Shown one piece after another: positions 4,451-48,458 of a DNA stretch of 64,000 bases; the stretch's first letter is position 1, and each line of letters starts with the position of its first letter. The stretch is from Methylovulum sp. (GTDB lineage: Bacteria; Pseudomonadota; Gammaproteobacteria; Methylococcales; Methylomonadaceae), in contig JAURZI010000111.1 in the NCBI GenBank assembly GCA_030653435.1, positions 1 through 64,000 of the forward strand, written 5' to 3'. Below the pieces are notes generated by a model. It made no database searches, had not been told where the DNA came from, and was given only the letters and a program-made list of their open reading frames with translations. A program made the translations under genes and the position numbers.

Positions 4451-4647
4451 TACTCCCATATGAGTCAAAAAGCGTTGAAGTTTTTGCCAGAGGTCATTAT
4501 TCAGCCTTTTCTCTCCGTAGGGCGCGCTGCGCGCACCATCGGCGGCTCGGTACCGGAAAAGGCGCGCGCGGCGCGCCCTTCGTTTCGTGTGACGGTAGGC
4601 GTTACCGGTTTTCAAAACTTAGATGTTTTCTCGATCAGATGGGGGTA
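4451..4647 (+). repeat. miniature inverted-repeat element, copy A
   Basis: 197 bp element running from TACTCCCATATGAGTC to GATCAGATGGGGGTA. The ends are imperfect inverted repeats (consensus TACTCCCATCTGA), with an internal GC-rich hairpin made of a GTAGGGCGCGC-type arm and its complement. Same orientation as copy B. Codes no credible protein. Confidence 0.85.
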
Positions 4648-8770: not shown

Positions 8771-8964
8771 TACTCCCATATGAGTCAGAGCGTTGAAGTT
8801 TTTGCCATAGGTCATTATTCAGCCTTTTCCCACCGTAGGGGGCGCTGTGCGCGCCATCGGCGGCTCGGTACCGGAAAAGGCGCCCGCTGTGCGCCCTACG
8901 TTTCGTGTGACGGTAGGTGTTGCCGGTTTCAAAACTTAGACGTTTTCTCGATCAGATGGGAGTA
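8771..8964 (+). repeat. miniature inverted-repeat element, copy B
   Basis: 194 bp, TACTCCCATATGAGTC to GATCAGATGGGAGTA, same orientation as copy A and sharing its CATATG variant near the left end, where other copies have CATCTG. Between 8965 and 9236 there is only a small hairpin (CGGTT/AACCG, 9108-9122) upstream of the next gene. Confidence 0.85.
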
Positions 8965-32300: not shown

Positions 32301-35300
32301 CAGGGCACCCGCCGTCACGCCGATACCGGCGTTGGCGGTTAACGTCACATTGCCGCTCAAGGTATTGGTGCCGCTGATATTAAGCAAGGCCCCATCGCTG
32401 GACACGCCGGTTCCCGCCAAACCGGTGATCGCTTCGGCTACCGTGATGCCGCCCTGCAACGCCAGCGCCGCGCCGCTGGTTACGGTGGTCCCGCCCGCGG
32501 TCGTGCCCAGCGCAGTGTTGCTCGCCGCCACCAGCGTGCCGGCAGAAACCGTAATGGCTCCGGTATTGGTATTGGCTCCGGTCAGGACGAGCGTTCCCGC
32601 ACCGCTCTTGACCAACGCCGCCGCGCCAACCGATTCAGAAATGACGCCAGTCAAGGTGCCGGTGCCGATGGCAACATTAACCGTACCGCCGCTCGGCCCC
32701 AGAACGAACGAATTGTCGATAGTCGGGCTGTTGGTCAGGTCTAGTACCGCAGTGCTGCCGTTCAAGACGACTGCGTTGGCGCCAAGATTGCTGTCGCTAC
32801 CGATGCTGACAGTGCCTGCCAGTATGCTGGTCGCCCCGTAGCTGTTGGTGGTACCGGTCAGGATGAGCGTGCCGCTGCCTTGTTTCAGGAAGTCGAAAGC
32901 GCCTGAAACCTGGCCCGAGAGCGTAACGGTATTATTGCCACTGTTCAGGGCGGCATTGCCGGCCAGCGTCACTGCGTTAGCCGCAGTTATGGCGCTCCCC
33001 GAATCAGTGAACTTGAGAACCGTGTTAGCGCCCAGGCTGATCGCCCCGGTGTTGAGATTGGCAGACGTCGCCGCCTCCAAGGTACCGCCGCTTACCGCCA
33101 GGTTACCGGCAAAGCTGCTGGAATTGTTACCCGACAGCGTCAGTTTGCCGGTACCGTCCTTGATCAGGCTTCCCGTAATGGTGCTGGTGAAGCCGCCGGA
33201 GAAGGCGGTGTCGGTCGACTGGCTGATCGTCAGCGCATTAGCGCCAATCGCCACCGTGCCGGCGCCCGACAGCGCACCGATCGTCTCGGTCGCCGACGCC
33301 AGGGACAGCGTGCCCGCCACCGCCACCGCGCTGTTGTCGGCCAGCGCCGTGCCGCTGCTGTTGTTCAGGGTCAGCGTGCCCGCCAAGATCGTGGTGGCGC
33401 CGGTGTAGGTATTGGCCCCCGACAGGGTCATCGTGCCGCTGCCCGTCTTGGTCAGGCCGCCGGTACCGCTCATCACGCCGGAGAAGGTGGTGGATGTGCT
33501 GTCGCCGCCCGCGGTCAGGGTATTGGCACCCAGAGCGACGGTGCCCGCGCCGGACAAGCCACCAATGGTTTCATTTCCGCCCAGGGTAAGCGTTGCGCCG
33601 GAAGCCACCGTAACGGCACTGCTATCGGCGATCACCGCCGCGCCGCCCGTCGTCAGCCCGCCAGCCGACACCGTGGTGGAGCCGGTGTAGGTGTTGGCCC
33701 CTGACAGGGTCAGCGTACCGGAGCCGGTCTTGGTCAGGCCGCTGGTGTTGGTGGAGGAGATCACGCCGGAAAAGGTGGTGCTGGTGTTGTCGCCGCCCAG
33801 CGTCAACCTGTAACTCAGGATGACGTTGCCGGCCCCGGCCAGCGAGCCGATGGTTTCGTTGCCAACGCCCAGAGTCATGGTGGCGCCGCTGGCCACGGTC
33901 ACCGCGCTGCTGTCGGCAATGCTGCTGCCGCCGCTCAGCGTCAATCCGCCCGCGTTCACCGTGGTGGCGCCGGTGTAGGTGTTGGCCCCGGTCAACGTCA
34001 CCGTACCGATCCCCGATTTGGTCAGCGCACCCGTGCCGCTGATAACACCGGCATAAGTCCCATTGCTCGCCTGGGCGAACTCCACCGTCGCGTTGTTGAC
34101 GATGTTCCCTTGCAGACTGGAGGTATCGCCCTTCAGCGTGCCGGCGTTCACCGTCGTTCCGCCGGAATAGGTGTTGCCAGCGTTGGACAGCGTCAGGGTC
34201 TGACCACCGATCTTGGTCAGCGCCCCCGTCCCGGTGATCGCGCCGGAAAGCGTCGCGCCGGAATTGGCGACGAGAACCGTGCCGCCGCCCGCCCCCAGCG
34301 TGACGGCGTTGTCGACCGTGCCATTGACGTTGGCGAGCGTCAACTGGCCACCGTTCAGCGTCACCGCGCCGCCGCCGAGGTTGCTGTCGGCGCCGATTTC
34401 CAGTGTGCCCGCCGACACCGTAGTGGTTCCGGTGTAGGTGTTGGTTCCCGACAGGATCAGCTTGCCGGTGGTGGAGGTCGTGCCTGTTTTGACCACCGTC
34501 CCGGTCCCGGTCCCGTCAGCGATGACCGACGAGATGGTCAGCGCGTCGCCCGACCCGTTGGTGACGTTCAGCGCGCCGGCCAGTTGCAGCGTCTGCCCGG
34601 TGATGGTCAGCGTGCCGACCGCGTCGGCGTCGAAGGTCACGCCGGCGGCGACGACGTAGGCGGCACCCAGCGTGATTGTCGAATTGGCTAAACCGGCGTC
34701 GAAACCGACGGTCTTGTTGGCGGAGGCCAACGCCAGCGCTTCGCGCAGGTCAAGACCGCCGCCATCCACCAATTCTTCGGCGTAAGTGCCGATGGCGTCG
34801 GAGCCAATGGCGGCGACCGTCACGATCAGCGAATCGGAAACGGTGATCGTCAACGATTCGTCGTAGTTGGAAGTTCCGTCGTTGACCCGCAGCACCACCG
34901 TGTAAGAGCCGGCGGTCGTCGTCGAAGGCGTGGCGGCGCGCAAGTCCGTCCCGTTGATGTTGAACAGGTTGTAGGTCGCGCCCGTAGTCGCGCCATTCAC
35001 CGACACGATGGAATAGGTCGGGCCGCCGCCGTCCACGTCGGTGCGCGTCAGGGCGCCGACGACCGTGTTGTTGGCGTCGTAAACGCTGACGGAAGTCGCC
35101 GACAACGCGATGTCGGTCGGGGCATCGTTGACGGCGGTAATGCTGGTGCCAATCGTATTGGTGTTGGCTGAAATCGCCGTGGTACCGCTATTGACCGAAG
35201 AATTTAGGGTAACCCGAGTTTCGGAACCGGCCGTCGCACTGTAACCGCTGGCGTTAGTGTTATCTAACGCCCGTACAGTCAAGGCTGTCGGTGCGCCGTT

Positions 35301-37127
35301 ATAATTCGCCGCCGGTACAAAGCGCACCAACGTGGAAGCGGACAAGGCCAGCGCGGTACTGTCGTTGGCCACGGTGCCGATCGCAAACCAGTTCGAACCT
35401 GCGTTGGTGCTGTATTGCCAAACGCCTTCGGTGCCGCTGTTGGCGGTGTTGCCCACCACCGCCACGCCGCTCAAACTGGAACCTGTATCCACGTCGGCAA
35501 AACTCAGGCCGGTCAACGCGCTGATCGCCGAGCCTGCTGGACTCGATGTATCTTCGTTGACCGCTGATAAAGTCAGATTGCCTAAGCCTGTCGGCGCGTC
35601 GTTGACGGCGGCCACATCCACCTTCACTTGGACGGCCGTAGTAGAAGCCGCTGTTCCGTCATATGCTTTGACCGTGAAAGCGTTGAGACTGGAGCCGTTG
35701 GCATCGGCCGCGGCTTTCCAATACCATGTACCGCCGGTACTGAGTAATGTGGCTCCGGCCGTCACTTGAGTGGTTAATCCGGAATCGGTATATAAGGTAC
35801 CGGTTGATACCGCTTCGACTCGGAAACTCTTTGCATCGCCAACATCGGTATCAGCGTAGTTGGAGGCGGCCAACAATGTGGCATAAGTGATCGCATAACC
35901 GGTGTCTTCGGTGGCTCCGGTCAAGGTGGAGATCGTGCTTAGGGTTGGGACGGCGTTGGGGGGGGAGATGATGTTATCGAAGATGATATTGTCAAAAATC
36001 GGGCAAAATTTCCCATCCGCAGCTGTGATGGTAATACTGGTTATTCCCTGAAAATCCGAGGCAGTTGTTGGAATGAAGGTTATTGTGCCAGGGGCACTAC
36101 CAACGGCAATATCTGTGGCATCAAATGTAATTGTCTGGGTTTTCCCCGTGTTAGTCGTCACCGTAAGCGTATCATCACCAGGATTAGCAATAGCATTAAC
36201 ATCATCACTTATAATAAAACTGGTAAGGTCGAAAGTTTTTCCGCCTTGAACCGAGATAACAACCCGTGATTCCACGACAGTACTTTCAGCACTTACATCG
36301 GCACTCTGACCAGTTAAACCATTAAGCGTGTCCCAGTCAGTGGTCAATGAAATGTTTTTATCAGTCGAAGTCAGTACAACAGTTTCACCGGATTTAGTCT
36401 GCGTGAGTGTTTTTGTCCCGGTACCAGTAACAACACCGCTATCAAAATCGAACGTAATCTCCGCCAGCAGGCCTTTGTACGAAGCTGCGGCGGTATCCGT
36501 AATGGCAACTTTCGCTTCGATAGAACCGGTCGCGGCTTCCAATACCCAGTCGCCGCCCCGAACCGCCGAGCCGGTCAGATCGTCAGACGCTACCACGTCG
36601 GCTCCGGTGGCGTTCGCTATCGCCGAAATAAACGCCGCTCCAGCCGATCCTTCAGCCACATTGCAACCATAAAGCAATATATCGGCATCCTGACTCAGCG
36701 CGCTGCCGATAGTGCTTAAATCGCCGATATGGTCCGGCAGGTTTTTTGTCGTTAAGGTCTGCGAGCCCAATAACAGCGCGCCATCGGAGCCGTGGGACAC
36801 GATGTGGATGGCATCGATGCCGCTACGGCCATCCAGGATTTGCGCCATTTGCGTGAGGCCGTCCTGCCCGGCATCGAGCACATGCACTTCCGTACCTGGC
36901 TTGGCGCCATCAATCAGCGCCTGGTAATCGGCGACGTTGCTTTCGATAAAGAGGATTTCGACAGATTGCGGTTCGACTGAGGGCGGTACAGCAGCAACCA
37001 GGGCTTGGGCGTCCTGGTTGCTGACGGCGGCATCCTGTGCAGGAAATTTGGAGGTGATTGCAGGAGCCGACTTATTTGAATTCATTGTGTCTGCTTTTTC
37101 TTTAAGTATGGTTTTGATGAATGTCAT
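23400..37127 (-). CDS. giant secreted repeat protein (DUF4347, cadherin-like, PATR, Ig-like, RTX)
   Basis: 4575 residues. Order by approximate residue: DUF4347 domain 55-215 (ILFIESNVADYQALI, HIVSHGSDGALLLG, LLYGCNVAEG); cadherin-like units 390-860 (repeated AVNDAPT joints); autotransporter-associated beta-strand repeats (PATR) 870-2660, more than twenty units of the LTLSGxNTYxGxTTVSAGTL type; Ig-like units 2740-3280; a VCBS-type unit 3380-3480 (tailed by SFSYTVSDSAG); a mixed domain to 3850; RTX Ca-binding nonapeptides 3850-4495 (GGxGxDxLxG); and a type I secretion tail 4496-4575 (GADRFIFSTALV, DTLTDFNSGEDIIEL). No autotransporter barrel and no N-terminal Sec signal, so export by a type I ABC system is inferred; that system is not in the window. 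Probably an adhesin or matrix protein. Co-oriented with modification-type genes upstream. Confidence 0.93.
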   Translation of the reverse strand: MTFIKTILKEKADTMNSNKSAPAITSKFPAQDAAVSNQDAQALVAAVPPSVEPQSVEILFIESNVADYQALIDGAKPGTEVHVLDAGQDGLTQMAQILDGRSGIDAIHIVSHGSDGALLLGSQTLTTKNLPDHIGDLSTIGSALSQDADILLYGCNVAEGSAGAAFISAIANATGADVVASDDLTGSAVRGGDWVLEAATGSIEAKVAITDTAAASYKGLLAEITFDFDSGVVTGTGTKTLTQTKSGETVVLTSTDKNISLTTDWDTLNGLTGQSADVSAESTVVESRVVISVQGGKTFDLTSFIISDDVNAIANPGDDTLTVTTNTGKTQTITFDATDIAVGSAPGTITFIPTTASDFQGITSITITAADGKFCPIFDNIIFDNIISPPNAVPTLSTISTLTGATEDTGYAITYATLLAASNYADTDVGDAKSFRVEAVSTGTLYTDSGLTTQVTAGATLLSTGGTWYWKAAADANGSSLNAFTVKAYDGTAASTTAVQVKVDVAAVNDAPTGLGNLTLSAVNEDTSSPAGSAISALTGLSFADVDTGSSLSGVAVVGNTANSGTEGVWQYSTNAGSNWFAIGTVANDSTALALSASTLVRFVPAANYNGAPTALTVRALDNTNASGYSATAGSETRVTLNSSVNSGTTAISANTNTIGTSITAVNDAPTDIALSATSVSVYDANNTVVGALTRTDVDGGGPTYSIVSVNGATTGATYNLFNINGTDLRAATPSTTTAGSYTVVLRVNDGTSNYDESLTITVSDSLIVTVAAIGSDAIGTYAEELVDGGGLDLREALALASANKTVGFDAGLANSTITLGAAYVVAAGVTFDADAVGTLTITGQTLQLAGALNVTNGSGDALTISSVIADGTGTGTVVKTGTTSTTGKLILSGTNTYTGTTTVSAGTLEIGADSNLGGGAVTLNGGQLTLANVNGTVDNAVTLGAGGGTVLVANSGATLSGAITGTGALTKIGGQTLTLSNAGNTYSGGTTVNAGTLKGDTSSLQGNIVNNATVEFAQASNGTYAGVISGTGALTKSGIGTVTLTGANTYTGATTVNAGGLTLSGGSSIADSSAVTVASGATMTLGVGNETIGSLAGAGNVILSYRLTLGGDNTSTTFSGVISSTNTSGLTKTGSGTLTLSGANTYTGSTTVSAGGLTTGGAAVIADSSAVTVASGATLTLGGNETIGGLSGAGTVALGANTLTAGGDSTSTTFSGVMSGTGGLTKTGSGTMTLSGANTYTGATTILAGTLTLNNSSGTALADNSAVAVAGTLSLASATETIGALSGAGTVAIGANALTISQSTDTAFSGGFTSTITGSLIKDGTGKLTLSGNNSSSFAGNLAVSGGTLEAATSANLNTGAISLGANTVLKFTDSGSAITAANAVTLAGNAALNSGNNTVTLSGQVSGAFDFLKQGSGTLILTGTTNSYGATSILAGTVSIGSDSNLGANAVVLNGSTAVLDLTNSPTIDNSFVLGPSGGTVNVAIGTGTLTGVISESVGAAALVKSGAGTLVLTGANTNTGAITVSAGTLVAASNTALGTTAGGTTVTSGAALALQGGITVAEAITGLAGTGVSSDGALLNISGTNTLSGNVTLTANAGIGVTAGALTLSGVIGDGAGSFGVTKLGSGTLTLSGANTYDGATTVSAGTLSVAADSNLGTGTVTLALDTTLQVTGATTIDNAIVLSGSATIQTDAAVTVSGVLSGGAQALTKTGSGTLTLSNTATYTGGTTIKDGVLATDDLPDTGTLTFDGGTLSARTATGFNESIAVTVTANGGGLDVATGNISLSGIIAGSSSGALTVAGGGGHVLYLSGNNTFDGGITLNTNGYVDVGSATALGSGTLTINGSNSKVRSTVGSYTLVNHIVLNSSFILSGSYAETFSGTVDLNNGSRTINDSISGNLTFNGAISNGSLIIASQGTGLVVLGGSNSSGYTTTTVSSGTLSITDDSNLGSGGVTLNGGVLTVTGTGTIDNPIALGSSDGTVSNANAVTLSGVISGASGADLTKTGAGTLTLSATNTYAGATTVSAGVLSVALDSNLGTGTVTLASGTTLQVTGATTIDNVITLSGDASVNNSAAVTLSGAFSESGGARTLTKTGVGTLTLTNTGNEAGLTGGVTVAAGTLSIADDNALAGGTVTLAAGAVLSVTGATTIDNAIALSGAATIQTDAAVTVSGALSGGAQALTKTGSGTLTLSSTSNEAGLTSGVTVSGGTLAVAVDDALVGGTVTLDGGTLSLAQITINQTFDNAITVGSSDGTVAFSAGNATLSGQITAASGRNLTIATSVNSYVLSLSNAGNSATFAGNLTVDSGTVDVKTAGNLNTGSITLNAGTKLQFTGTNPTTFNLANTLTLTGNATISTNSGNSVTFSGQVSGNYALTKSAGGTLTLSGTNSYGATTVLGGTLSVAADSNLGSGAVTLNGGTLEATGSGITIDNAIALGNSDGTVSNANALTLSGVISGAGGADLTKSGAGTLTLSGTNTYAGATTVSAGTLSVAADSNLGTGTVTLNGGTLEATGSGITIDNAIALGSSDGTVSNANALTLSGVISGASGADLAKSGAGTLTLSGTHTYAGATTVSAGTLSVTGVLGATSGVTVSSGATLGGSGSVFATSSSNILTVNNGGTLAPGVSGAGTLTVNGNLAIDSGGTLSQDINGTTAGTGYDQIQVIGTVNITGASLSALTGFTPNVGDSFVLISNDGTDAVTGTFNGLNEGDTLVVGGSTFLISYQGGSNNNDIVLTAIDATPPVVQSITSPSNSTYKIGDALDFVVTFSEAVTISGGTPSIAVTLNTGGTVQAQLVGTVTNSTTATFRYTVADGNLDTNGIGTAATISANGSAIKDAADNAMTDFGFTAPITTGVLVDGVAPTLAITSNVSAVKTGETATITFTFSEDPGASFAWNGSTGDIVVTGGTLGAISGTGLTRTATFTPTANLASGSAGITVASGTYTDTAGNNGGAGTTPSLSIDTLAPTLAITSNVSAIKASETATITFTFSEDPGASFAWNGSTGDIVVTGGTLGAISGTGLTRTATFTPTANLASGSASITVASGTYTDTAGNSGGAGTTPSLSIDTLAPTLTIDTLADDNIINDSEDDSAVTLTGTTTAENGQTVTINFGGISTSATASNGTWTTTVSADDIKSLPEGSVIVTANVNDVAGNAATEASATVIYDRTAPNAPVITAVTDNVGTVTGPVGNGGSTDDTVLQITGTAEANSTVTLYNGTVELGEVTADASGNWSFITGTLNNGSTYVFNAKATDAVGNTGDASSQHSVTIDTRAQGEPTISGTPVQGQTLSADTSAISDPDGLGSFSYVWKADGIAISGATGSSYTLTEADVGKAISVEVRFTDGSGSAEGPLTSAATGTVSGSNNAPQAAADHSTASGLANAQAVGNVLTNDQDADPNDSLTVTAIHTGGTGAPGNIGQPLSGDYGSLVLNADGSYTYTVATGNTEVDALGFGAQLTDSFSYTVSDSAGETSTATLTVTIQGIDIGANDQDGITTDIENAANGGDFNKDGIADAAQSNVTALPLRSADEFDEGVVAPVASFGAVLVGDVAAAGSPAQLDSNAQFGSINILSQAEAASQYGSDIADELAQLPTDPVMTGLLDFTVQAAPGSVGLDDLDPSRAGIQTRVIIELPEGISSDTYYKIGKTPDNLDPHIYAYMADNDLSTYDDGAQLLDLNGDGDIERIVLTFTDGAKGDDDLEENGIIVDPGFLGNAVTLPPIVITGLPDRASYAEGHAPVRPWTDLAFDNNDGGALTSATVTLDGFRIGDRLKVDARGTGLTAHYDKITGILTLSGSADPAVYQSVLHSLKYFGREDFIVVETRSLMLTVTNTQGNQSSGQTELDISPSIIIGTPLPDKLTGTYANDVIIGRASNDRIHGRKGSDLIKAGTGNDWLEGGNGHDDLRGNRGDDTIQGGLGNDTARGGIGNDLLCGNTRGNDYYLGGQGHDTVDYSASPDGVSVNLLVNKTQQISIGSGSDRLNNIENLIGSAFNDRLSGNQEANNLTGLTGDDLLSGRGGNDHIDGGAGNDTVRAGTGNDRISGSTAGDDRYLGGRGNDTVDYSASPDGVSVSLDKVNAQLVSVGSGTDRLKNIENLIGSQFSDNLTGNRQANKLTGLDGNDSIDGGDGNDKLRGNGGNDTLIGDDGDDICRGGAGDDLFSGGMAGNDRYLGGQGNDTVDYSASPDRVTVALTTNKAQQASVGSGRDTLSSIENLIGSHYDDSLSGNRRANTLIGQDGNDSLAGRVGNDRLDGGTGNDLLRGGAGDDLFTGDTSGNDHYLGGTGIDTVDYSESADGITVNLMTTVEQPISTGSGTDILIGIENLLGSFFNDDIRGNDQANTLIGLGGADIMRGKGGNDTLDGGTGNDILKGNYGDDTLQGGEDNDIVRGGLGNDRFTGSTAGDDRYFGGAGSDTLKYSQSPDGVSVSLMINGSQTTSIGSGSDFLVSIENLVGSRFNDNLVGDANANRLGGGRGSDTLSGGAGADRFIFSTALVNKHIDTLTDFNSGEDIIELSAGIFTAYAGQVGQTVGLSSTLSYDAGTGMLAYDADGLGEEAATEIAIIGLSGHPAGLGDEFLIIA
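23640..25570 (-). repeat. RTX block with five long units
   Basis: Within the giant gene. Five copies of a 109-118 codon unit, each starting with (H/R)Y(L/F)GG and (D)TVDYSxSPDGVSV, passing through GSGxDxLxxIENLIGS and ending in runs of GGxGNDxLxG. The DNA period is about 327-354 bp and unit boundaries stay in frame. Calcium-dependent folding outside the cell is the established role of such runs. Confidence 0.88.
27922..28545 (-). repeat. tandem near-identical Ig-like repeat, 2 x 312 bp
   Basis: Two adjacent 104-codon units (28545-28234 and 28233-27922) coding APTLAITSNVSA to SLSIDT differ at only a few bases across 312 bp, so this is a recent in-frame duplication inside the giant gene. Confidence 0.88.
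29150..34510 (-). repeat. long array of autotransporter-associated beta-strand (PATR) repeats
   Basis: Roughly 1790 codons of units built around LTLSGANTYTGATTVSAGTL followed by a variable strand pair such as SVAADSNLGTGTVTLNGGTL. Some neighbouring units are nearly identical at the DNA level (267 bp period around 29401 and 29668). PATR units form a beta-helix in autotransporter passengers. Confidence 0.85.
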
Positions 37128-37746: not shown

Positions 37747-37938
37747 TACTCCCATCTGATCGAGAAAACGTCTACGTTTTGAAAACCGGCAACGCCTACC
37801 GTCACACGAAACGTAGGGCGCGCCGTGCGCGCCTTTTCCGGTATCAAACCGCCGATGGCGCGTGCAGCGCGCGGTGGGAAAAGGCTGAATCATGACCTCT
37901 GGCAAAATCTTCAACGCTTTTTGACTCAGATGGGAGTA
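37747..37938 (-). repeat. miniature inverted-repeat element, copy C (reverse orientation)
   Basis: 192 bp; opposite orientation to the other copies, starting TACTCCCATCTGATCGAG and ending CTCAGATGGGAGTA. Lies between the sulfotransferase gene and the giant gene. Confidence 0.85.
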
Positions 37939-39696: not shown

Positions 39697-40379
39697 AATA
39701 AATTCCTCTTAATGTATATGATTAAAACGCAACGATAATAGACTCGCTGCACGATAAGGTTACCTGGTATTCAATTACGCAAAATGCTGATGTTTTTTTT
39801 GTAAAAACCCTAACAAGCAGCCTACATAAAACAATAAATACCAGATTATTGAAACTAAGCACTAGCTACCGGTAATACGATTTTATTCAAACTTCAAGCG
39901 ATAAGATAAAAACAGGATTCAAATTTACTTCACAGCCGCATGTTATTTTTACTTACTCCCATCTGAGTCGAAAAGCGTTGAAGTTTTTGCCAGAGGTCAT
40001 TATTCAGCCTTTTTCCACCGTAGGGCGCCCTGCGCGCGCCATCGGCGGCTCGGTACCGGAAAAGGCGCGCACGGCGCGCCCTACGTTTCGTGTGACGGTA
40101 GGTGTTGCCGGTTTCAAAACTTAGACGTTTTCTCGATCAGATGGGAGTAATAAAGCCAGGGCTATGATCTGGTTTTAAATCCGGCCAAACAATCAGTTGG
40201 CGGTCGGAAAGATAGCAGATCATACCGTTAAATAAAACAAAAAAGATTATGGGCTAATCAGCTCAGCAAGCAGTTTCCGTAACGTCGGCAGCTAGATAAC
40301 GGAATAGCTCTGAACGGCCGCAATTCGGTTTTTTATATAGGGTACCGGCATACTGCCGATGAATTACGGTATCGAGGGT
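39697..40379. other. gap holding element copy D
   Basis: About 680 bp. 39697-39953 is AT-rich and probably carries the tail-collar promoter. 39954-40149 is element copy D. 40150-40379 has no gene; near the hydroxylase stop a hairpin ACCGGCA-TAC-TGCCGAT (about 40345-40362) preceded by a T6 run on the plus strand may end transcription. Confidence 0.5.
39954..40149 (+). repeat. miniature inverted-repeat element, copy D
   Basis: 196 bp, the best-preserved copy: TACTCCCATCTGAGTCGAAAA at the left and TTTTCTCGATCAGATGGGAGTA at the right form a 22 bp imperfect inverted repeat (the left arm has one inserted base). Internal GTAGGGCGCCC...GGCGCGCCCTAC hairpin. Confidence 0.9.
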
Positions 40380-41090
40380 TTATTCAGTGCACTGCACAGA
40401 TTCCAATCGATTAGCCAAACTCAATGCCGCCTCTGTGCCGCTCTGCCGTAATTCGGCAATGACCTCACGCACATTTGCATCGGTGATATTGGGGTCGCCG
40501 TATTTCGGTTCGGGATTGGCAACAAACCCGGCCGCATGAAAAATATCGGTCAGCCATTGATTCGGGATGCAATCAAGCACTAAATGAATGCGATGCACTG
40601 CGCTATGATTTTCAACCCGGTGCCTGCAATTGGCATTCATATACCAAGTGCCGCCCGCAGCAAAATGAATCGGCTCGTCATCCAGCCAAAACAACACTTC
40701 TGGGTCGGTGATAATAGGAATATGCAAACGCGCCAAGCCATCTTCAAAGTTGGTTCCGGGATCGGTATGTTCGTGGATGACGCCGCCCGGCGCCAATGCC
40801 ATCAGGCGCACGGCGCAGGTTTCGCATTTGAAGTGTTGCAGGATTTGCCGGAAATAAGGGCAGCGCGCCAAGAGCGGCGTATCCAGGAATTGGTCGTTCG
40901 AAAATGCCAGAATATCATCGTTACGGCCGTGCGGAGAACGCAATGCCTGACAGTGCCAATACCCTGCACCGGCAGCTTGATCATTGTAATGAGGCACCCA
41001 TTGATCCGGTAATAAGCGCTGCAAATCGGTTTGCAATGCGGTCAGGTCGAAATCGAGCGGCAAACGCAAATGGCGGGTAGCCTGTTTCAT
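40380..41090 (-). CDS. aspartyl/asparaginyl beta-hydroxylase family protein
   Basis: 236 residues, Fe(II)/2-oxoglutarate oxygenase fold. Seen: ALAPGGVIHEHTDPGTNFEDG, in which H108-x-D110 would bind iron; GTWYMNANCRHRVENHSAVHRIHLVLD, in which H157 or H162 would be the third ligand and R167 the 2-oxoglutarate anchor. Established relatives hydroxylate Asp or Asn side chains of proteins, but bacterial members of this shorter type lack assigned substrates. Its start overlaps the GNAT stop by four bases (coupled). It is upstream of the collar, sulfotransferase and giant genes, all co-oriented. Confidence 0.88.
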   Translation of the reverse strand: MKQATRHLRLPLDFDLTALQTDLQRLLPDQWVPHYNDQAAGAGYWHCQALRSPHGRNDDILAFSNDQFLDTPLLARCPYFRQILQHFKCETCAVRLMALAPGGVIHEHTDPGTNFEDGLARLHIPIITDPEVLFWLDDEPIHFAAGGTWYMNANCRHRVENHSAVHRIHLVLDCIPNQWLTDIFHAAGFVANPEPKYGDPNITDANVREVIAELRQSGTEAALSLANRLESVQCTE

Positions 41091-41581
41091 AGCGTAATCC
41101 CCGCTTGCCAGCGCATCTGTTCGCTTAAGGCATCTTCGCTAACAATTTGGAAGCCGGCAGAAAGATAGAGCTGGCGTGCTTTGAGGTTATTTTTTACTAC
41201 GCGCAAACTCAAGTTTGCCTGATGAGTTTCGGCCATTTGCTGAAGGTACTGCACCATATACCGCGCCAAACCCTGTCGTTGTACACCAGGCAGGACTGCA
41301 ATGTCGATCAGGCGGATATCGCCGACAGTGTGTTCGAATACCATGCGCCCCAGCGCTTGACTTTGAAATTCGAGAATTTTGGTTTGAGCATTGGGATGAT
41401 TCTGCTGCACGCCCAGTGCATGAATCTGTTGTTGGGACCGAATCAAGTTGTCGATAAAGTCCGAATCCATCGGCAACCTGAGTAAATCTTCGCGGGTTGA
41501 ACGATAAAGTGTGTCGATAAATTCTTGATCGCGCTCATGGACGGAGCGTATTTGTAAATCGGGCGGCGGCATCTCTATCAT
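41087..41581 (-). CDS. GNAT-family N-acetyltransferase
   Basis: 164 residues from the ATG at 41581 (MIEMPPPDLQIRSV); the longer reading back to 41797 would run into the divergent neighbour gene and is rejected. GNAT landmarks: IDIAVLPGVQRQGLARYMVQYL (acetyl-CoA loop, about 92-113) and LRVVKNNLKARQLYLSAGF (about 127-145). The substrate could be an amino acid, antibiotic or protein amine. Overlaps the hydroxylase gene by four bases, so both are made together; this links it to the giant-protein locus. Confidence 0.85.
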   Translation of the reverse strand: MIEMPPPDLQIRSVHERDQEFIDTLYRSTREDLLRLPMDSDFIDNLIRSQQQIHALGVQQNHPNAQTKILEFQSQALGRMVFEHTVGDIRLIDIAVLPGVQRQGLARYMVQYLQQMAETHQANLSLRVVKNNLKARQLYLSAGFQIVSEDALSEQMRWQAGITL

Positions 41582-41660
41582 TTTTACGAAGTTTAAAATA
41601 TTTTTTCTGCTATCATGCACACCGTCGACTTTTGACGCAAATCTATCTGAAAGGTTAGCC
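41582..41660. promoter_or_regulatory. divergent promoter region
   Basis: 79 bp between the GNAT gene (minus) and the DUF6916-like gene (plus), AT-rich in its centre. Both transcripts must start in or near it. No clear -10/-35 pair or operator could be named. Confidence 0.5.
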
Positions 41661-41969
41661 ATGAATCTTAGTCTTGAACAAGCTTCTCCGTTAGTGGGCA
41701 CAAACTTCACAATACACACACAGGCAGGTCTGATCAGCTTGCAATTAATCGATGTCGCAGAATTACCGCGCCGCAATATACCGGAACAATTTCGCACTCC
41801 GTTATCATTGGTCTTTACCGGGCCGCCCGATATACTGTTACAGCAAGATATTTATCTGGTTGAGCATGCTGAATTGGGACAGAATCAATGGCTCATGGGG
41901 CCCATATTATCAATCAATCCCGGCGCTAAGGATGATAACAAACTCTACTATGAGATAATGTTCGCTTGA
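41661..41969 (+). CDS. small protein of DUF6916 type
   Basis: 102 residues, ribosome-binding site AAAGG seven bases before the ATG. No signal peptide. A compact beta-rich sequence: LGTNFTIHT-like strand VGTNFTIHTQAG, then VAELPRRNIPEQFRTPLSLVFTGPPDILLQQDIYLVEHAELG, shown by pieces, and a close at NKLYYEIMFA. The (F)xLxFxG-(P)xxxxLxQxxYxLxHxxLG pattern is typical of small proteins that accompany tail-collar (MdpB-like) proteins; I assign the DUF number from memory. Function unknown; the location supports a role with the tail-collar protein. Confidence 0.75.
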   Translation: MNLSLEQASPLVGTNFTIHTQAGLISLQLIDVAELPRRNIPEQFRTPLSLVFTGPPDILLQQDIYLVEHAELGQNQWLMGPILSINPGAKDDNKLYYEIMFA

Positions 41970-41986
41970 GAATAGCGGGGTCGCCG

Positions 41987-42179
41987 GGTTCTGTCGCAAA
42001 ATCAGGAATGAGCGCGCAATAAATCTGCATAATCATTCAGACCCTCGTTAAGCTATTTGACGCGTAGGGAGTGCCTTTCCCGATGCTTGGAAAACGGTAC
42101 TCAGCGCTGGTGGCGCGCACGGCACGCCCTACAATCGCTCAACTGGTTACAAGCTCATTCCTGACTTTGCGACAGAACC
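41987..42179. mobile_element. 193 bp non-autonomous element with 27 bp terminal inverted repeats
   Basis: The left end GGTTCTGTCGCAAAATCAGG continuing AATGAGC (41987-42013) and the right end (42153-42179), read in reverse, agree at 26 of 27 bases. GGTTCTGTxGCAAA resembles the ends of IS6-family insertion sequences. No transposase is coded. The interior contains a GTAGGG...CCCTAC hairpin like that of the other small repeats. A possible short target repeat (GCC) flanks it. Confidence 0.75.
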
Positions 42180-42200
42180 TGCCGCTTCACCGTAATTGGA

Positions 42201-42785
42201 ATGCCCCTCATCATGACTCCCATACAATTATTCTGGTTGATCCTTGGCGTAAGCTGGGCGGTCATCGAGCTGCTCATTGCGCTGAAAACCCGTGTTCCGG
42301 TCAGCAGCTCAAATCAACATCAATACCGTTCCGAACGGCTGATTTGGGCGGTGGTTGCCGCTGCGTTGCTTGCGGCGCTATGGCTTAAGCACCTGCATCT
42401 GGCAGCCCTGCCGATAGCGGCGTTTAACCGCCAGCTGCTAGCCGTGGTTCTTTTCACGCTGGGTTTGGCGTTGCGCTGTTATGCGGTGCTGAGTCTGGGA
42501 CGGTTTTTCAGCACCACTGTGGTCACGCGCGACCAGCATGCGCTAATCGACACCGGGCCTTATCACTGGATACGCCATCCTGCCTATACCGGTTTGTTGT
42601 GCGGCTTTTTCGCAGCAGGTCTGGCGATGGGCGATGCCTTGGCGCTGTTAATGTTGGTCTGCCCGGTCATTTATGTGTTAGGCCAACGCATACGCATCGA
42701 AGAACAATGGTTAATAGAACATTTCGGCGAAGTCTATTATGATTACTGCCGCCGTACCAAAAAACTGATCCCCTGGCTCTACTAG
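42201..42785 (+). CDS. isoprenylcysteine carboxyl methyltransferase-like membrane protein
   Basis: 194 residues (a start at 42213, MTPIQLFW, is also possible). About four to five membrane segments, then the family core: RCYAVLSLGRFFSTTVVTRDQHALIDTGPYHWIRHPAYTGLLCGF, given in fragments, with the RHPxYxG motif that binds S-adenosylmethionine and the C-terminal RIRIEEQWLIEHFGEVYYDYCRRTKKLIPWLY. Known relatives methylate carboxyl groups of lipidated substrates in membranes. It lies seven bases or so before a CrtN-type gene and two aldehyde dehydrogenases, suggesting methylation of a carotenoid carboxylate. Confidence 0.88.
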   Translation: MPLIMTPIQLFWLILGVSWAVIELLIALKTRVPVSSSNQHQYRSERLIWAVVAAALLAALWLKHLHLAALPIAAFNRQLLAVVLFTLGLALRCYAVLSLGRFFSTTVVTRDQHALIDTGPYHWIRHPAYTGLLCGFFAAGLAMGDALALLMLVCPVIYVLGQRIRIEEQWLIEHFGEVYYDYCRRTKKLIPWLY

Positions 42786-42833
42786 CCGCGTTTGGCTAGC
42801 TCCGCATTGCTAAAACTTTACAACATCATACCC

Positions 42834-44345
42834 ATGCCTATGTCTGAAAAAAAACACATTGTTATTGTCGGTGCAGGGCCTGGCGGCTTGTGTGCAGGAA
42901 TGCTGTTAAGCCGACGCGGCTTTAACGTGACTATTTTTGATAAAAATTCTGAAGTCGGCGGACGTAACCGGCCTATCCGTTTGGGCGAATTCGTGTTCGA
43001 TACCGGCCCCACTTTTTTGCTGATGAAGCATGTGCTGGATGATATGTTTGCCTTATGCGGCAGGCGTAGCGGCGATTATCTGCACTTTATCAAACTCGAC
43101 CCGATGTACCGATTGCTGTTTTCCGACCGCGCCGTCAATGTGTATTCCGACCGCGATAAGATGCGTGAAGAACTGGCGCAAGCGTTTCCAGAAGGCAGCG
43201 CGGGCTATGATGTTTACCTGAAACAGGAAGGCGAGCGATTTGCCAAGCTTTATCCGTGCATAAAACGCGATTTCAGCAGCCTGAAAGCCTTTTTTTCGCT
43301 GGATTTGCTGCGTGCATTGCCCAGTCTCGCCCTCAACCATAGCGTGTTTTCCAATCTGGGAAAATATTTTAAAGAAGAAAAGCTGCGTTTGGTGTTTTCC
43401 TTCCAATCCAAATACTTGGGCATGTCGCCTTGGGATTGCCCGGCCATGTTTACGATGTTGTCTTATCTGGAACATGAATACGGCATTTATCATGTGCAAG
43501 GCGGCTTGAATAAAATCGCTGCAGCGATGGCGCAAGTCATCACCGAGCAGGGCGGGGTGATCCGCAACAACACGGCGGTGGCTTCGTTGATCATTGAAGA
43601 CAAAATCGCCAAAGGCGTGCGTTTGCAGGATGGCAGCGTGATTGCCGCCGATGTGGTCATCGTCAACGCCGATTTTGCCTATGCGATGACCCAGCTGGTT
43701 CAGCCCGACGAACTGAAACAATACAGCCCGGAGAAGTTAGAAAAACTCGATTATTCCTGCTCGACATTCATGCTCTACCTGGGCTTGGATACGTGTTACG
43801 ACCTGCCGCACCACACGATAGCCTTTGCCGAAGATTATACGACCAACATCAGCAATATTTTCCATAATAAGGTCTTGAGCAAAGACTTCTCGTTTTATGT
43901 GCAGAATGCCTGTGTCAGCGACCATACGCTGGCGCCTGCCGGAAAATCGGCCTTATATGTCTTGGTACCTATGCCCAATAACGATAGCCATCTGGATTGG
44001 CCTGCGATCTGCGCCGAAAAACGCGAACAAGTGCTGGACGTGTTGGAAGCCCGCTTGGGTTTGACGGGCATACGCGGGCATATCGAATGCGAAAAAATCA
44101 TCACGCCGCAAACTTGGGAGATGGAGGAGTATGTCTTTAAAGGCGCGACCTTCAGCTTATCGCATAAATTCAGCCAATTGCTGTACTGGCGGCCACATAA
44201 CCAATTCCAGGAGCTTGGGCAATGTTATCTGGTGGGGGGCGGCACGCATCCAGGCAGCGGTTTGCCGACGATTTATGAATCGGCGCATATTTCCGCCCAG
44301 TTGATTTGCCGGAAACATGGGGTTAATTTTGGGCTGGAGTCGTGA
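42834..44345 (+). CDS. CrtN-family carotenoid desaturase/oxidase
   Basis: 503 residues from 42834 (42840 is an alternative; the open frame begins at a TTG, 42792). FAD-binding dinucleotide fold at the start (HIVIVGAGPGGLCAGMLLSRRG, FDKNSEVGGRNRPI), DTGPTFLLM, and the C-terminal VGGGTHPGSGLPTIYESA, which is the diagnostic CrtI/CrtN close. In Methylomonas a crtN paralogue next to ald converts terminal methyl groups of C30 carotenoids to aldehydes; whether this gene desaturates or oxidises cannot be told from sequence. The following ALDH gene overlaps its stop by four bases. Confidence 0.88.
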   Translation: MPMSEKKHIVIVGAGPGGLCAGMLLSRRGFNVTIFDKNSEVGGRNRPIRLGEFVFDTGPTFLLMKHVLDDMFALCGRRSGDYLHFIKLDPMYRLLFSDRAVNVYSDRDKMREELAQAFPEGSAGYDVYLKQEGERFAKLYPCIKRDFSSLKAFFSLDLLRALPSLALNHSVFSNLGKYFKEEKLRLVFSFQSKYLGMSPWDCPAMFTMLSYLEHEYGIYHVQGGLNKIAAAMAQVITEQGGVIRNNTAVASLIIEDKIAKGVRLQDGSVIAADVVIVNADFAYAMTQLVQPDELKQYSPEKLEKLDYSCSTFMLYLGLDTCYDLPHHTIAFAEDYTTNISNIFHNKVLSKDFSFYVQNACVSDHTLAPAGKSALYVLVPMPNNDSHLDWPAICAEKREQVLDVLEARLGLTGIRGHIECEKIITPQTWEMEEYVFKGATFSLSHKFSQLLYWRPHNQFQELGQCYLVGGGTHPGSGLPTIYESAHISAQLICRKHGVNFGLES

Positions 44346-45928
44346 TTAACGCGTTACCGGCCATCTCCGTGTTAACGGGGCAACCCATAACCAGCTATCC
44401 CGTCACTAGCCCCGGCGACATCAGCGGGATAATGACCAGCGCCAGACAAGCCGCCATCATCTGGGCGCAAGTCGACACTAAACAACGCGCAAAACAACTG
44501 GCGTGCTTGGAAGCCGTCATGCTGGCTGAGCTGGATCTTCTCACCGCAACCATCATGGCGGCGACCGGCAAGGTCAAAACTGAAGTCCTGCTTGGCGAAA
44601 TCTATCCCGTGCTGGCTTTATTGCGCTATTACCAGCACCACGCCGCGCAGATACTCGCACCTTGTCCTATCCATACCGCACCGCTGGAATTTCCGCAGGC
44701 CCGCGCACAATTCGAACGCCGCCCTTACGGTGTCGTGGCGGTTATTTCGCCGTGGAATTTCCCCTTGCAGCTGACCTTAAGCCCGTTGCTGACGGCGTTG
44801 TTCAGCGGCAATGCCTGTGTGTTTAAAATGTCCGAATTAAGCGTGCCGGTCGGCGAATTACTGGTGCAATTGCTGGCGAGGCTGGCGTTGCCGGAAGGTC
44901 TGGTACAGCATGTGATAGGCGAGGCAGAAACAGGTCGGCAATTAATAGCCGCCCGCCCCGATTTGGTTTTTTTTACCGGCAGCGTCCAGGCGGGCAGGGC
45001 AGTGATGGCCCTGGCCGCGCAACACCCGATACCGGTGATTCTGGAATTGGGTGGCAAAGACGCGATGGTCGTGTTTGCTGATGCCCATTTGCAACGGGCA
45101 GTGAAAGCCGCGTTATACGGCGCGTTCAGCAATAGCGGGCAGGTCTGTGTGTCCATAGAGCGCTGTTATGTCGAGGCTGCCTGTTATGCCGAATTTGTTG
45201 CGATGCTGGTCGATGCCGCGTCGGCTATTACCGTCGGTCACGGTGCCGTCGGCGATCTGGGCGCACTGACGACGCCAACGCAATTCGCCGTCATCGAAGC
45301 CCATTACCACGATGCGTTAGCCAAAGGCGCACAAGCCTCATCGCCCTTGCGCCTGGAAGGCCGCTATTTGTATCCGGTAGTGCTGTGGGATGTCACGCAC
45401 GATATGCTCATCATGCGTGAAGAGACTTTTGGGCCGTTGTTGCCGGTGATGGCGTTTACCTCGGAAGCACACGCCGTAGATCTGGCTAACGACAGCGATT
45501 ACGGCCTGAATGCCAGCGTCTGGAGCAAAGACCTCAGTAAAGCCGAACGCGTTGCCAAGCAATTGCAGGTCGGCAACTGGGCGGTGAATGATGTCATCAA
45601 AAATATCGGCCATGCCGGTTTGCCGTTCGGCGGTGTTAAAAACAGCGGTTTTGGCCGTTATCACGGCGCGGAAGGCTTGCGCCAGTTTACCTATACCGTC
45701 GCGGGCTTGACCAGTTACAGCGCCCTGGATGACGAGCCTAACTGGTTCCCGTACTCAGAGGCCCGTTATCAAGCCATGCGCGGGTTTATTGATGTCATGT
45801 TCGGCAGCGGTTGCTTATTTCGGCGCATTGCCAGGAATTGGCGGGAATTACAGGTGTTCCGCGCTTATGCTTCATTAAATTTGCGGCAGCATGCACGAAA
45901 CATTTGGATCTTTATGTTCAACAAATAA
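44342..45928 (+). CDS. aldehyde dehydrogenase, carotenoid-aldehyde type
   Basis: 528 residues starting at GTG (GTGA overlap with the CrtN stop). Landmarks: AVISPWNFPLQLTLSPLLTALFSGNACVFKMSE (NAD-binding, in pieces), ELGGKDAMVVFADAHL with the general-base Glu, and SNSGQVCVSIERCYVE with the catalytic Cys; EETFGPLLPV later. A hydrophobic C-terminal extension (RRIARNWRELQVF to IFMFNK) suggests membrane association. By analogy with Ald of Methylomonas it would oxidise a carotenoid aldehyde to the acid; inference from context. Confidence 0.9.
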   Translation: MINALPAISVLTGQPITSYPVTSPGDISGIMTSARQAAIIWAQVDTKQRAKQLACLEAVMLAELDLLTATIMAATGKVKTEVLLGEIYPVLALLRYYQHHAAQILAPCPIHTAPLEFPQARAQFERRPYGVVAVISPWNFPLQLTLSPLLTALFSGNACVFKMSELSVPVGELLVQLLARLALPEGLVQHVIGEAETGRQLIAARPDLVFFTGSVQAGRAVMALAAQHPIPVILELGGKDAMVVFADAHLQRAVKAALYGAFSNSGQVCVSIERCYVEAACYAEFVAMLVDAASAITVGHGAVGDLGALTTPTQFAVIEAHYHDALAKGAQASSPLRLEGRYLYPVVLWDVTHDMLIMREETFGPLLPVMAFTSEAHAVDLANDSDYGLNASVWSKDLSKAERVAKQLQVGNWAVNDVIKNIGHAGLPFGGVKNSGFGRYHGAEGLRQFTYTVAGLTSYSALDDEPNWFPYSEARYQAMRGFIDVMFGSGCLFRRIARNWRELQVFRAYASLNLRQHARNIWIFMFNK

Positions 45929-45974
45929 GCTGTCCGGACTTTAGGGCAAACACGGGTTAAACAAGGTAACTATC

Positions 45975-47405
45975 ATGCATTATCAAGTCCAAGTCCCCGA
46001 CGCATACCCGGCGGGTATCGTAGAAGTTTTTTCGCCTTATGACGGCAAGCGGATAGGTTCGGTCGAAACCATAGATGCCGTTGGCGCCGAGGCGGCGTTA
46101 AAAAACATGGCGGCGGTGTTTCGTGACCGCCGGCACTGGATACCCGCCTATGAACGCATCGCCATTCTCGAGCGCACGGTGGTGCTGATGCGGGAACGCG
46201 CCGAACAGTTAATTGCCATTGCCGTTGCTGAGGGCGGCAAACCCTATATTGACACGAAAATTGAGCTGTATCGCGCCATAACCAGCATGCAAAACTGCAT
46301 AGACTGTATCCGCACCGAACACGGCACGGAAGTGCCCATGCAGCTTAATTTAGCCTCGATGAACCGTCTGGCCTTTACGCATAGCGAACCCATAGGGCCG
46401 GTGGTTGCCGTGAGCGCCTTCAACCATCCAATAAATTTGATCGTACATCAGCTTGGCCCGGCTATTGCCAGCGGTTGCCCCGTCATTATCAAACCTGCCA
46501 CGGAAACCCCGTTATCCGCTTTTGCCTTGGTCGAAATCATCCATGAGGCCGGTTTACCGAAAACTTGGTGCCAAGCGGTTGCCGTTAACCATTTGGCCGT
46601 TGCCGAGCAATTGGTTATCGACCGGCGCGTCGCCTTTTTCAGTTTCATCGGCAGCGCTAAAGTAGGCTGGATGCTGCGTTCAAAACTGGCGCCGGGCACC
46701 CGTTGTTCGCTGGAACATGGCGGCGTAGCTCCGGTGATTGTCGCCGAGGACGCCGACCTTGACAGCATGCTGCCGCTATTGGCGAAAGGTGGTTTTTATC
46801 ATGCCGGTCAAGTCTGCGTCTCTGTCCAGCGCGTTTACGGGCACCGTTCGATAGCCCAGTCCATCGCAGAGCGTCTGGCTGCGTTGGCGGAAACTCTGGT
46901 GGTGGGCGATCCCGCCAGCGACAAGACTCAGGTCGGCCCGTTAATCCGGCATACTGAAGTGGACCGGGTTGAAACCTGGGTCAATCAAGCCCTACAGGAA
47001 AACGCCACACTGATGGCCGGCGGCAAGCGTTTGTCAAATGCCTGTTACCAACCCACGGTGTTATTGAATCCGTCCGAAGACAGTAAAGTCAGTCAAAACG
47101 AAATTTTCGGGCCGGTTATTTGCGTCTATGATTATGATGAAATCGATGATGCCATTAACCGCGCGAATGCCCTGCCGTATGCTTTTCAGGCGGCCGTTGC
47201 AACAAAGGCTATTGATACCGCCTTCTATGCTTACAAGCATCTGGCTGCATCGACGGTCATGATCAATGACCACACGGCATTCCGGGTTGACTGGATGCCT
47301 TTTGCAGGGTTGCGGGAGTCTGGTTATGGCGCGGGTGGCATCCCTTATACTTACCGGGCCATGCAAATTGAAAAAATGGCGGTTTTTCATTCGGCGGTCT
47401 TATAA
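45975..47405 (+). CDS. aldehyde dehydrogenase
   Basis: 476 residues, 46 bp after the first aldehyde dehydrogenase, same strand. VVAVSAFNHPINLIVHQLGPAIASGCPVIIKPAT (cofactor fold, in pieces), LEHGGVAPVIVAEDADL (general base region) and YHAGQVCVSVQRVYGH with the catalytic Cys; NEIFGPVICVYDYDEID follows. The FNHP motif and length are closer to lactaldehyde/phosphonate-type ALDH than to the upstream gene, so it may have a different aldehyde substrate. Why two ALDH genes are adjacent is not evident. Confidence 0.92.
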   Translation: MHYQVQVPDAYPAGIVEVFSPYDGKRIGSVETIDAVGAEAALKNMAAVFRDRRHWIPAYERIAILERTVVLMRERAEQLIAIAVAEGGKPYIDTKIELYRAITSMQNCIDCIRTEHGTEVPMQLNLASMNRLAFTHSEPIGPVVAVSAFNHPINLIVHQLGPAIASGCPVIIKPATETPLSAFALVEIIHEAGLPKTWCQAVAVNHLAVAEQLVIDRRVAFFSFIGSAKVGWMLRSKLAPGTRCSLEHGGVAPVIVAEDADLDSMLPLLAKGGFYHAGQVCVSVQRVYGHRSIAQSIAERLAALAETLVVGDPASDKTQVGPLIRHTEVDRVETWVNQALQENATLMAGGKRLSNACYQPTVLLNPSEDSKVSQNEIFGPVICVYDYDEIDDAINRANALPYAFQAAVATKAIDTAFYAYKHLAASTVMINDHTAFRVDWMPFAGLRESGYGAGGIPYTYRAMQIEKMAVFHSAVL

Positions 47406-48031: not shown

Positions 48032-48458
48032 ATCATCTATGATGTTTCAGTCATGCCAATTCGTCACTTTAATAACCAGATTCTTTGATTTTATGGCGGC
48101 GACTTTCGTTGTGTTTGTATGGCTTGGTGTGACATCGACTGCAATAGTGAATTACTCCCATCTGAGTCAAGAAGCGTTGAAGTCTTGCCAGAGGTCATTT
48201 TTCAGCCTTTTCCCATCGTAGGGCGCGCTGTGCACGCCATCGGCAGCTCGGTACAGGAAAAGGCGCGCGCTACGTTTCGTGTGACCGTAGGCGTTTCCGG
48301 TTTTCAAAACTTATACGTTTTCTCGATCAGATGGGAGTTAAATAATGCCATATAACCGACTTTAATGCTGATAAATAGTCGTCAATGGGGAATCGGCCAG
48401 CTAGTTTAGGTGCTGGGGTGTCATTATGAGAATAGCCGGCATAAAGGCGCGGCCCACC
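48032..48458. other. gap holding element copy E
   Basis: Contains copy E (48152-48340). Flanking bases show no gene; 48341-48458 lies downstream of the response-regulator gene and has no obvious terminator. Confidence 0.5.
48152..48340 (+). repeat. miniature inverted-repeat element, copy E
   Basis: 189 bp, TACTCCCATCTGAGTC to GATCAGATGGGAGTTA. The internal GC-rich hairpin is shortened relative to the other copies (one arm lost), showing decay. Plus orientation. Confidence 0.85.

Follow-up and report, generated by a model that had tools for sequence, protein, structure and literature searches.

How does a short element come to carry the ends of an insertion sequence around the interior of another repeat? 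The question is posed by a 193-bp element at 41987-42179 of the window, our term for the whole analysed stretch of 64,000 nucleotides. The first-pass annotation had described an element with 27-bp ends, and the description holds: the outer 27-bp inverted repeats agree at 26 of 27 positions, and a mechanical inverted-repeat search recovered the arms, reporting them as 32 nt long with 91% match and taking in five flanking bases on each side. By arithmetic, chance alone would produce about 9e-8 inverted repeats of this quality in 64 kb. Folded as single-stranded DNA, the element reaches -46.4 kcal/mol, against -25.2 (sd 2.9) in 200 shuffles (z -7.3).

Anatomy and setting of the element

By sequence comparison, the element resolves into three nested layers: IS6 ends, an inner repeat AGGAATGAGC...GCTCATTCCT, and a core that is a decayed GTAG-type REP doublet (REPIN). 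It sits between two co-directional genes, and the features are as follows.

41661..41969, + strand: upstream flanking gene, DUF6916 (Pfam PF21880)
41987..42000, + strand: left IS6-type terminal repeat GGTTCTGTCGCAAA, which two full-length IS6 copies carry unchanged as their 14-bp ends
42004..42013, + strand: left half of the second-layer inverted repeat, AGGAATGAGC, which also bounds G000:C117:35627-35804, there without IS6 ends
42030..42063, + strand: left arm, like the terminal arm of a GTAAYTATTCAG-ended, REPIN-bearing element in a same-genus genome
42064..42075, + strand: left REP, degenerate, 12 nt, GTAGGGAGTGCC, with a full-length counterpart in L003 (G000:C37)
42076..42111, + strand: REPIN spacer, matching the spacer of the same-genus element (0 of 1000 shuffles as good)
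42112..42132, + strand: right REP GGCGCGCACGGCACGCCCTAC, its GTAG tag on the - strand, with 200 genome places at up to three mismatches
42133..42152, + strand: right arm of the REPIN-bearing element, common to L002 and L003 (133 of 1000 shuffles as good against the same-genus element)
42153..42162, - strand: right half of the second-layer inverted repeat, GCTCATTCCT on the + strand, shared with the C117 relative
42166..42179, - strand: right IS6-type terminal repeat, the same 14 bp GGTTCTGTCGCAAA, again identical to the ends of the two full-length IS6 copies
42201..42785, + strand: downstream flanking gene, ICMT/PEMT-type methyltransferase (Pfam PF04140, PF04191)

Beyond the methyltransferase gene, 42792-47405 holds co-directional genes for an amine-oxidase-type FAD enzyme (PF01593) and an aldehyde dehydrogenase (PF00171) and a long open reading frame (45975-47405), an order that we take to recall a carotenoid cluster. 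Elsewhere in the window, the - strand of 23400-37127 is occupied by a single open reading frame of 4575 aa, rich in internal repeats.

The IS6 shell

The outer layer can be traced to resident insertion sequences. In the 4.66-Mb genome the 14-mer GGTTCTGTCGCAAA occurs exactly seven times, against 0.035 expected; four of these sites form the termini of two full-length IS6 copies (G000:C15:4040-4848, 809 bp, and C158:16033-16855, 823 bp), two belong to the window element and one to an IS6 deletion remnant. Both full-length copies are broken, matching the PF13610 transposase at 119 and 91 bits with in-frame stops, and no intact IS6 transposase was seen in the assembly, which is in 161 contigs, so one may be missing. 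As given in a description of the IS6/IS26 family, the 14-bp consensus is GGTTCTGTTGCAAA, with G1, G2 and G7 nearly invariant and G10 highly conserved; the window ends agree with it at 13 of 14 positions and keep all four of these bases (PMC6807381). The first-pass annotation, which called the ends IS6-like and proposed looking in the genome for a full IS with the same termini, was right on this point: the ends are neither unique in the genome nor without an IS match.

Which end of IS6 is represented? BLAST aligns the right end (42161-42179) with the right-type ends of the two full IS6 copies, 18 of 19 positions agreeing. Past the 14 bp, the window element reads GTCAG in its right arm and ATCAG in its left, and the genome's IS6 ends read GTTAG, GTTAG and ATTAG at the same position where they are right-type and TAGTT, TATTT and TATTT where they are left-type; the ATCAG of the left arm resembles the ATTAG of a remnant at C154:78424, a likeness seen by eye (BLAST reported the right arm alone). 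Both arms thus appear to continue like an IS6 right-type end, an assignment made from five bases on each side, of which the two in AG could be the inner element's. This favors right-type ends joined to another element, because a plain internal deletion of IS6 would retain both a left-type and a right-type end. The C154:78424 locus is such an internal-deletion remnant, in which 26 bp of the right end run into left-end positions 69-35.

No 8-bp target duplication was found around the element (4 of 8 bases agree). Its absence says little, because the duplication is also missing at both resident full-length IS6 copies, at short IS6-ended elements of alphaproteobacteria (0 of 6) and at all nine full-length IS6 copies on the Octadecabacter plasmid NC_020910.1; intramolecular IS6 transposition, according to the IS6 review, removes it (PMC7986276).

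The six alphaproteobacterial elements (L165-L170) are all the contigs of the named genome collection on which two exact 14-mers lie 150-180 bases apart. They measure 179-192 bp and are like the window element in having the same exact 14-bp ends, and unlike it in their interiors. Four of the six have GAATATTGTTC-like dyads at positions 28 and 39, eight dyads in all, of which one has three mismatches; the background for such a dyad with up to one mismatch is 26 in 4000 random 56-mers. IS6-ended elements of 190-191 bp recur in Rhodobacterales (L165:1540-1729, L166:1133-1322, L168:6401-6591, L169:5754-5944 and L186:2001-2190, the last being NC_020910.1:56151-56340), where the dyad lies at position 28 counted from one end and at position 39 counted from the opposite end, the second dyad of L169 being the one with three mismatches; their length is fixed and a centre of about 100 bp is variable. 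When L165 is compared with the Octadecabacter copy bin by bin, 9-10 of 10 positions agree in the four leading bins and in four of the five closing ones, against 2-5 of 10 in the ten middle bins. For L166, L168 and L169, no plasmid relatives were found. The interior of the Mesorhizobium element matches 145 plasmid records, over part of its length at most, and four of the eight matches listed are annotated there as IS6 family transposase; IS6 deletion derivatives of such a size therefore exist.

MITEs with IS6 ends are in print as well. MITEBth2 and MITEHarch3 are named in the family description (PMC6807381), and the review mentions two IS6 MITEs of 227 and 336 bp, probably the same pair (PMC7986276). 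As these sources list them, they resemble the window element in having the family's 14-bp repeats at both ends and no transposase gene. The window element is set apart from those descriptions by its length of 193 bp, its interior made of another repeat element, its single copy and its lack of an 8-bp duplication. Where MITEs are recognized by several dispersed copies with the same ends, a search of this genome for the 27-bp ends, allowing up to three mismatches, finds a single copy.

The REPIN core and its several ends

A relative of the element lacks the outer layer. The copy at G000:C117:35627-35804 is 80% identical over query positions 11-179 and has the second layer, and IS6 ends are absent from it. 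TTA flanks its GGAATGAGC...GCTCATTCC on both sides, a possible 3-bp duplication that could also be chance. A third, truncated copy on C37 (L003) carries both REPs of the doublet. The C117 copy comes from a relative search that scored 40 of 77 candidates; a search with 70 bases of the left arm found the window copy only (next E 0.28) and missed C117, so short diverged copies can escape. Counting the genome itself, relatives were found in 2 of 20 genomes of the genus at E 0.001, the other with the interior only, and in 3 of 237 genomes of the family at E 1e-7. The hybrid 27-bp end at up to three mismatches, and two exact 14-mers 151-211 bases apart, each occur in one of the 237 family genomes, the element's own. 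There were no relatives in plasmids at E 1e-5 and none in viral contigs by exact pattern.

The core itself belongs to a large repeat family. On the opposite strand, the right REP GGCGCGCACGGCACGCCCTAC starts with GTAG and can form a hairpin, as do GTAG REPs described before (PMC3733652). The 21-nt REP has 107 forward and 93 reverse places in the genome at up to three mismatches, against none for the reversed control, and they fall both inside and outside elements with TACTCCC ends. Grouped at up to four mismatches, 57 of 89 REP groups hold two or more REPs and 32 hold one, the groups having been built from 100 listed REP matches of the 200 plus the loci of the relative search. The 36 of 89 groups classed as having no ends include cut-down TACTCCC copies and L003, so that free REPINs are overstated; the 'MITE-A' tag, which at two mismatches also fires on TACTCCC left arms, was not used to count separate elements, and L002 lies outside the 89 groups, its REPs missing the search pattern. 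In the window doublet the right REP is intact and the left is cut to 12 nt.

Candidates for a matching transposase are present. The genome has two open RAYT genes, each scoring 192 bits to NF047646 (cut-off 80), and a third Y1-type gene that is IS200-type. Neither RAYT locus (L071, L074) has a REP at up to four mismatches within about 1.5 kb, and one of seven Y1-type loci scanned does (L069, at a contig end). As far as the REP and REPIN papers describe them, GTAG REPs and REPINs with their RAYTs have the same GTAG-tagged palindrome, inverted doublets and RAYT genes in the genome (PMC3733652, PMC3116915), whereas the window doublet is decayed, lies inside two further inverted-repeat layers and belongs to a REP not found beside the two RAYT genes.

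The first-pass annotation had also proposed that the element has the same hairpin core as the TACTCCC elements, one hairpin module being carried by different mobile ends. Elements with TACTCCC at both ends number five in the window (187-197 bp) and 33 in the stretches examined; such ends are absent from the window element. In the window, TACTCCC elements lie at 4451-4647, 8771-8964, 37747-37938, 39954-40149, 48153-48339 and from 55135 onward. TA stands at 62 of the 66 outer ends of the 33 two-ended copies (the search pattern itself began with TA), which is compatible with a TA target. With the REPs included, the cores of the window and TACTCCC elements align (score 41, null maximum 26). Without the REPs, the window element and L111, the one TACTCCC element that represented its type in all shuffle tests, are not alike beyond chance: 276 of 1000 shuffles were as good for the left arm, 157 and 155 for the spacer in its two orientations, and 622-695 for the other arm pairings. 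What stands of the shared core is the right REP, common genome-wide; the left REP is cut to GTAGGGAGTGCC, and the arms and spacer do not bear the claim out.

A third element type, with GTAAYTATTCAG ends, provides an indirect connection. It was found in one same-genus genome and twice in the element's own genome, once one-ended. Against one such element from the same-genus genome, no shuffle in 1000 equaled the window's left arm (local alignment score 38, null maximum 21) or its spacer, and 133 did so for the right arm. The TACTCCC left arm, compared with five third-type elements, was equaled by 0, 8, 408, 407 and 6 of 1000 shuffles, a match in three of the five, and the TACTCCC spacer matched in one of ten comparisons only (5 of 1000). 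Each of the two kinds of element thus matches parts of the third, and a module would be common to them by way of this chain and not directly. The broader idea of one hairpin module behind different mobile ends fares better for the REP, since TACTCCC ends, GTAAYTATTCAG ends and AGGAATGAGC ends (whether or not IS6 ends lie outside them) all enclose a REP or doublet, which occurs in other settings as well; little beyond the REP is shared directly with the TACTCCC elements.

Two further observations concern the TACTCCC ends. At about 1692 of L010 (G000:C24), a hybrid has a TACTCCC end on one side of a REP and a third-type GGGGCTGAATAGTTAC end on the other, and looks as if ends had been exchanged. 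A PF13358 (IS630-type) search of the genome gave four matches, three over the cut-off, and among these four no partner IS carrying TACTCCC ends was found; near the PF13358 loci the terminal repeat matched twice, at L184, where a REP lies near it, and at L185, where it has two mismatches and lies about 1.3 kb off.

Origin of the layered element

We lean toward reading the element as a non-autonomous IS6-type MITE wrapped around an older REPIN-bearing element; at 193 bp it is too short to hold an IS6 transposase. An IS6 right-type end would have become attached to one end of the older element, with a shared TTAG as a possible junction (the IS6 right end reads GGTTCTGTCGCAAAG-TTAG, the older element TTA-GGAATGAGC in C117), and the other arm would then have received the same IS6 end, whether copied across the palindrome or brought in by a further IS6 event. 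Since the IS6 DDE transposase acts on a pair of inverse IS6 ends, an intact enzyme, for as long as the genome had one, could have moved the unit in trans by copy-in transposition. The REPIN inside would have been a passenger of a kind whose spread is attributed to REP-associated tyrosine transposases. With respect to IS6, the element is probably immobile now. Against transposition as a unit stand its single copy, the failure to find an 8-bp duplication or an empty site, and the presence of broken IS6 transposases only. The empty site was sought in same-genus genomes, 8 of 20 of which, including the element's own, match the downstream protein; in the best five of the others (L175-L179; two weak protein matches were left out), the upstream gene is absent from the stretch before the downstream gene, these stretches being up to 1.5 kb long (about 1.2 kb in L177).

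Might the arrangement instead be a one-off rearrangement scar? IS6 deletions or inversions could have left an end beside the REPIN-bearing element, and correction between the arms could have copied that end, the unit never having transposed. We regard this as rather unlikely, though a serious contender: it would fit the single copy, the absent target duplication, the IS6 deletion remnant elsewhere in the genome, and the fact that both arms are right-type, both with C at position 17. The IS6 end and the inner repeat are, however, spaced by 3 bp on both sides, and equal spacing would be expected of a functional terminal repeat; the missing duplication counts for little when 2 of 2 resident and 9 of 9 Octadecabacter full-length IS6 copies lack it too.

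It is improbable that the 27-bp repeat belonged from the start to an older MITE family, as its own terminus, and that C117 lost its IS6 ends. The 27-bp arms, agreeing at 26 of 27 positions, are indeed far more alike than the adjoining sequence, but C117 and the window element agree at 13 of 34 outer bases where decay at the rate of the interior, with its 80% identity, would leave about 27, unless recombination removed the ends, as it could have done; and the 27-mer, allowing up to three mismatches, is absent from the other 236 genomes of the family. More improbable still is a role at the transcript level, with the element forming a hairpin in the methyltransferase gene's 5' leader. The strong fold and the position between co-directional genes would suit it, but the element contains no terminator-like or sigma-70-like site (one promoter-like site lies upstream, at 41932-41959), 41000-43000 has no Rfam match up to E 1, and the element is unmatched in the five same-genus genomes whose downstream gene was compared.

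A more general and more doubtful idea also suggests itself. REPINs might be building blocks that gain new transposon ends in turn, one core being served by several unrelated transposases, with the IS6 shell here set on both arms via the palindrome. The REP doublet with partial arms is seen alone and between GTAAYTATTCAG, TACTCCC or AGGAATGAGC ends, and here within the AGGAATGAGC type plus an IS6 shell. The REPIN authors already called it conceivable that REPINs are building blocks of more complex repeats (PMC3116915); if this is true, the genome would offer a concrete example.

MITEs with IS6 ends are a known kind, as are REPINs, and their combination, nested in layers, is new. In the open-licence literature, the 14-mer GGTTCTGTCGCAAA was not found, REPs nested in MITEs have no report that we could find, and 'chimeric MITE' has one match, which concerns inversions; the passages available there on IS6-family MITEs held no nested element of such a kind. 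The practical value is modest, with one copy and no signs of activity. The layered element, together with a relative that has no last layer, nonetheless lets one ask how short elements switch the transposase on which they depend, a step that is usually invisible, and it hints that genomes assemble small, mobile-looking elements out of second-hand parts.
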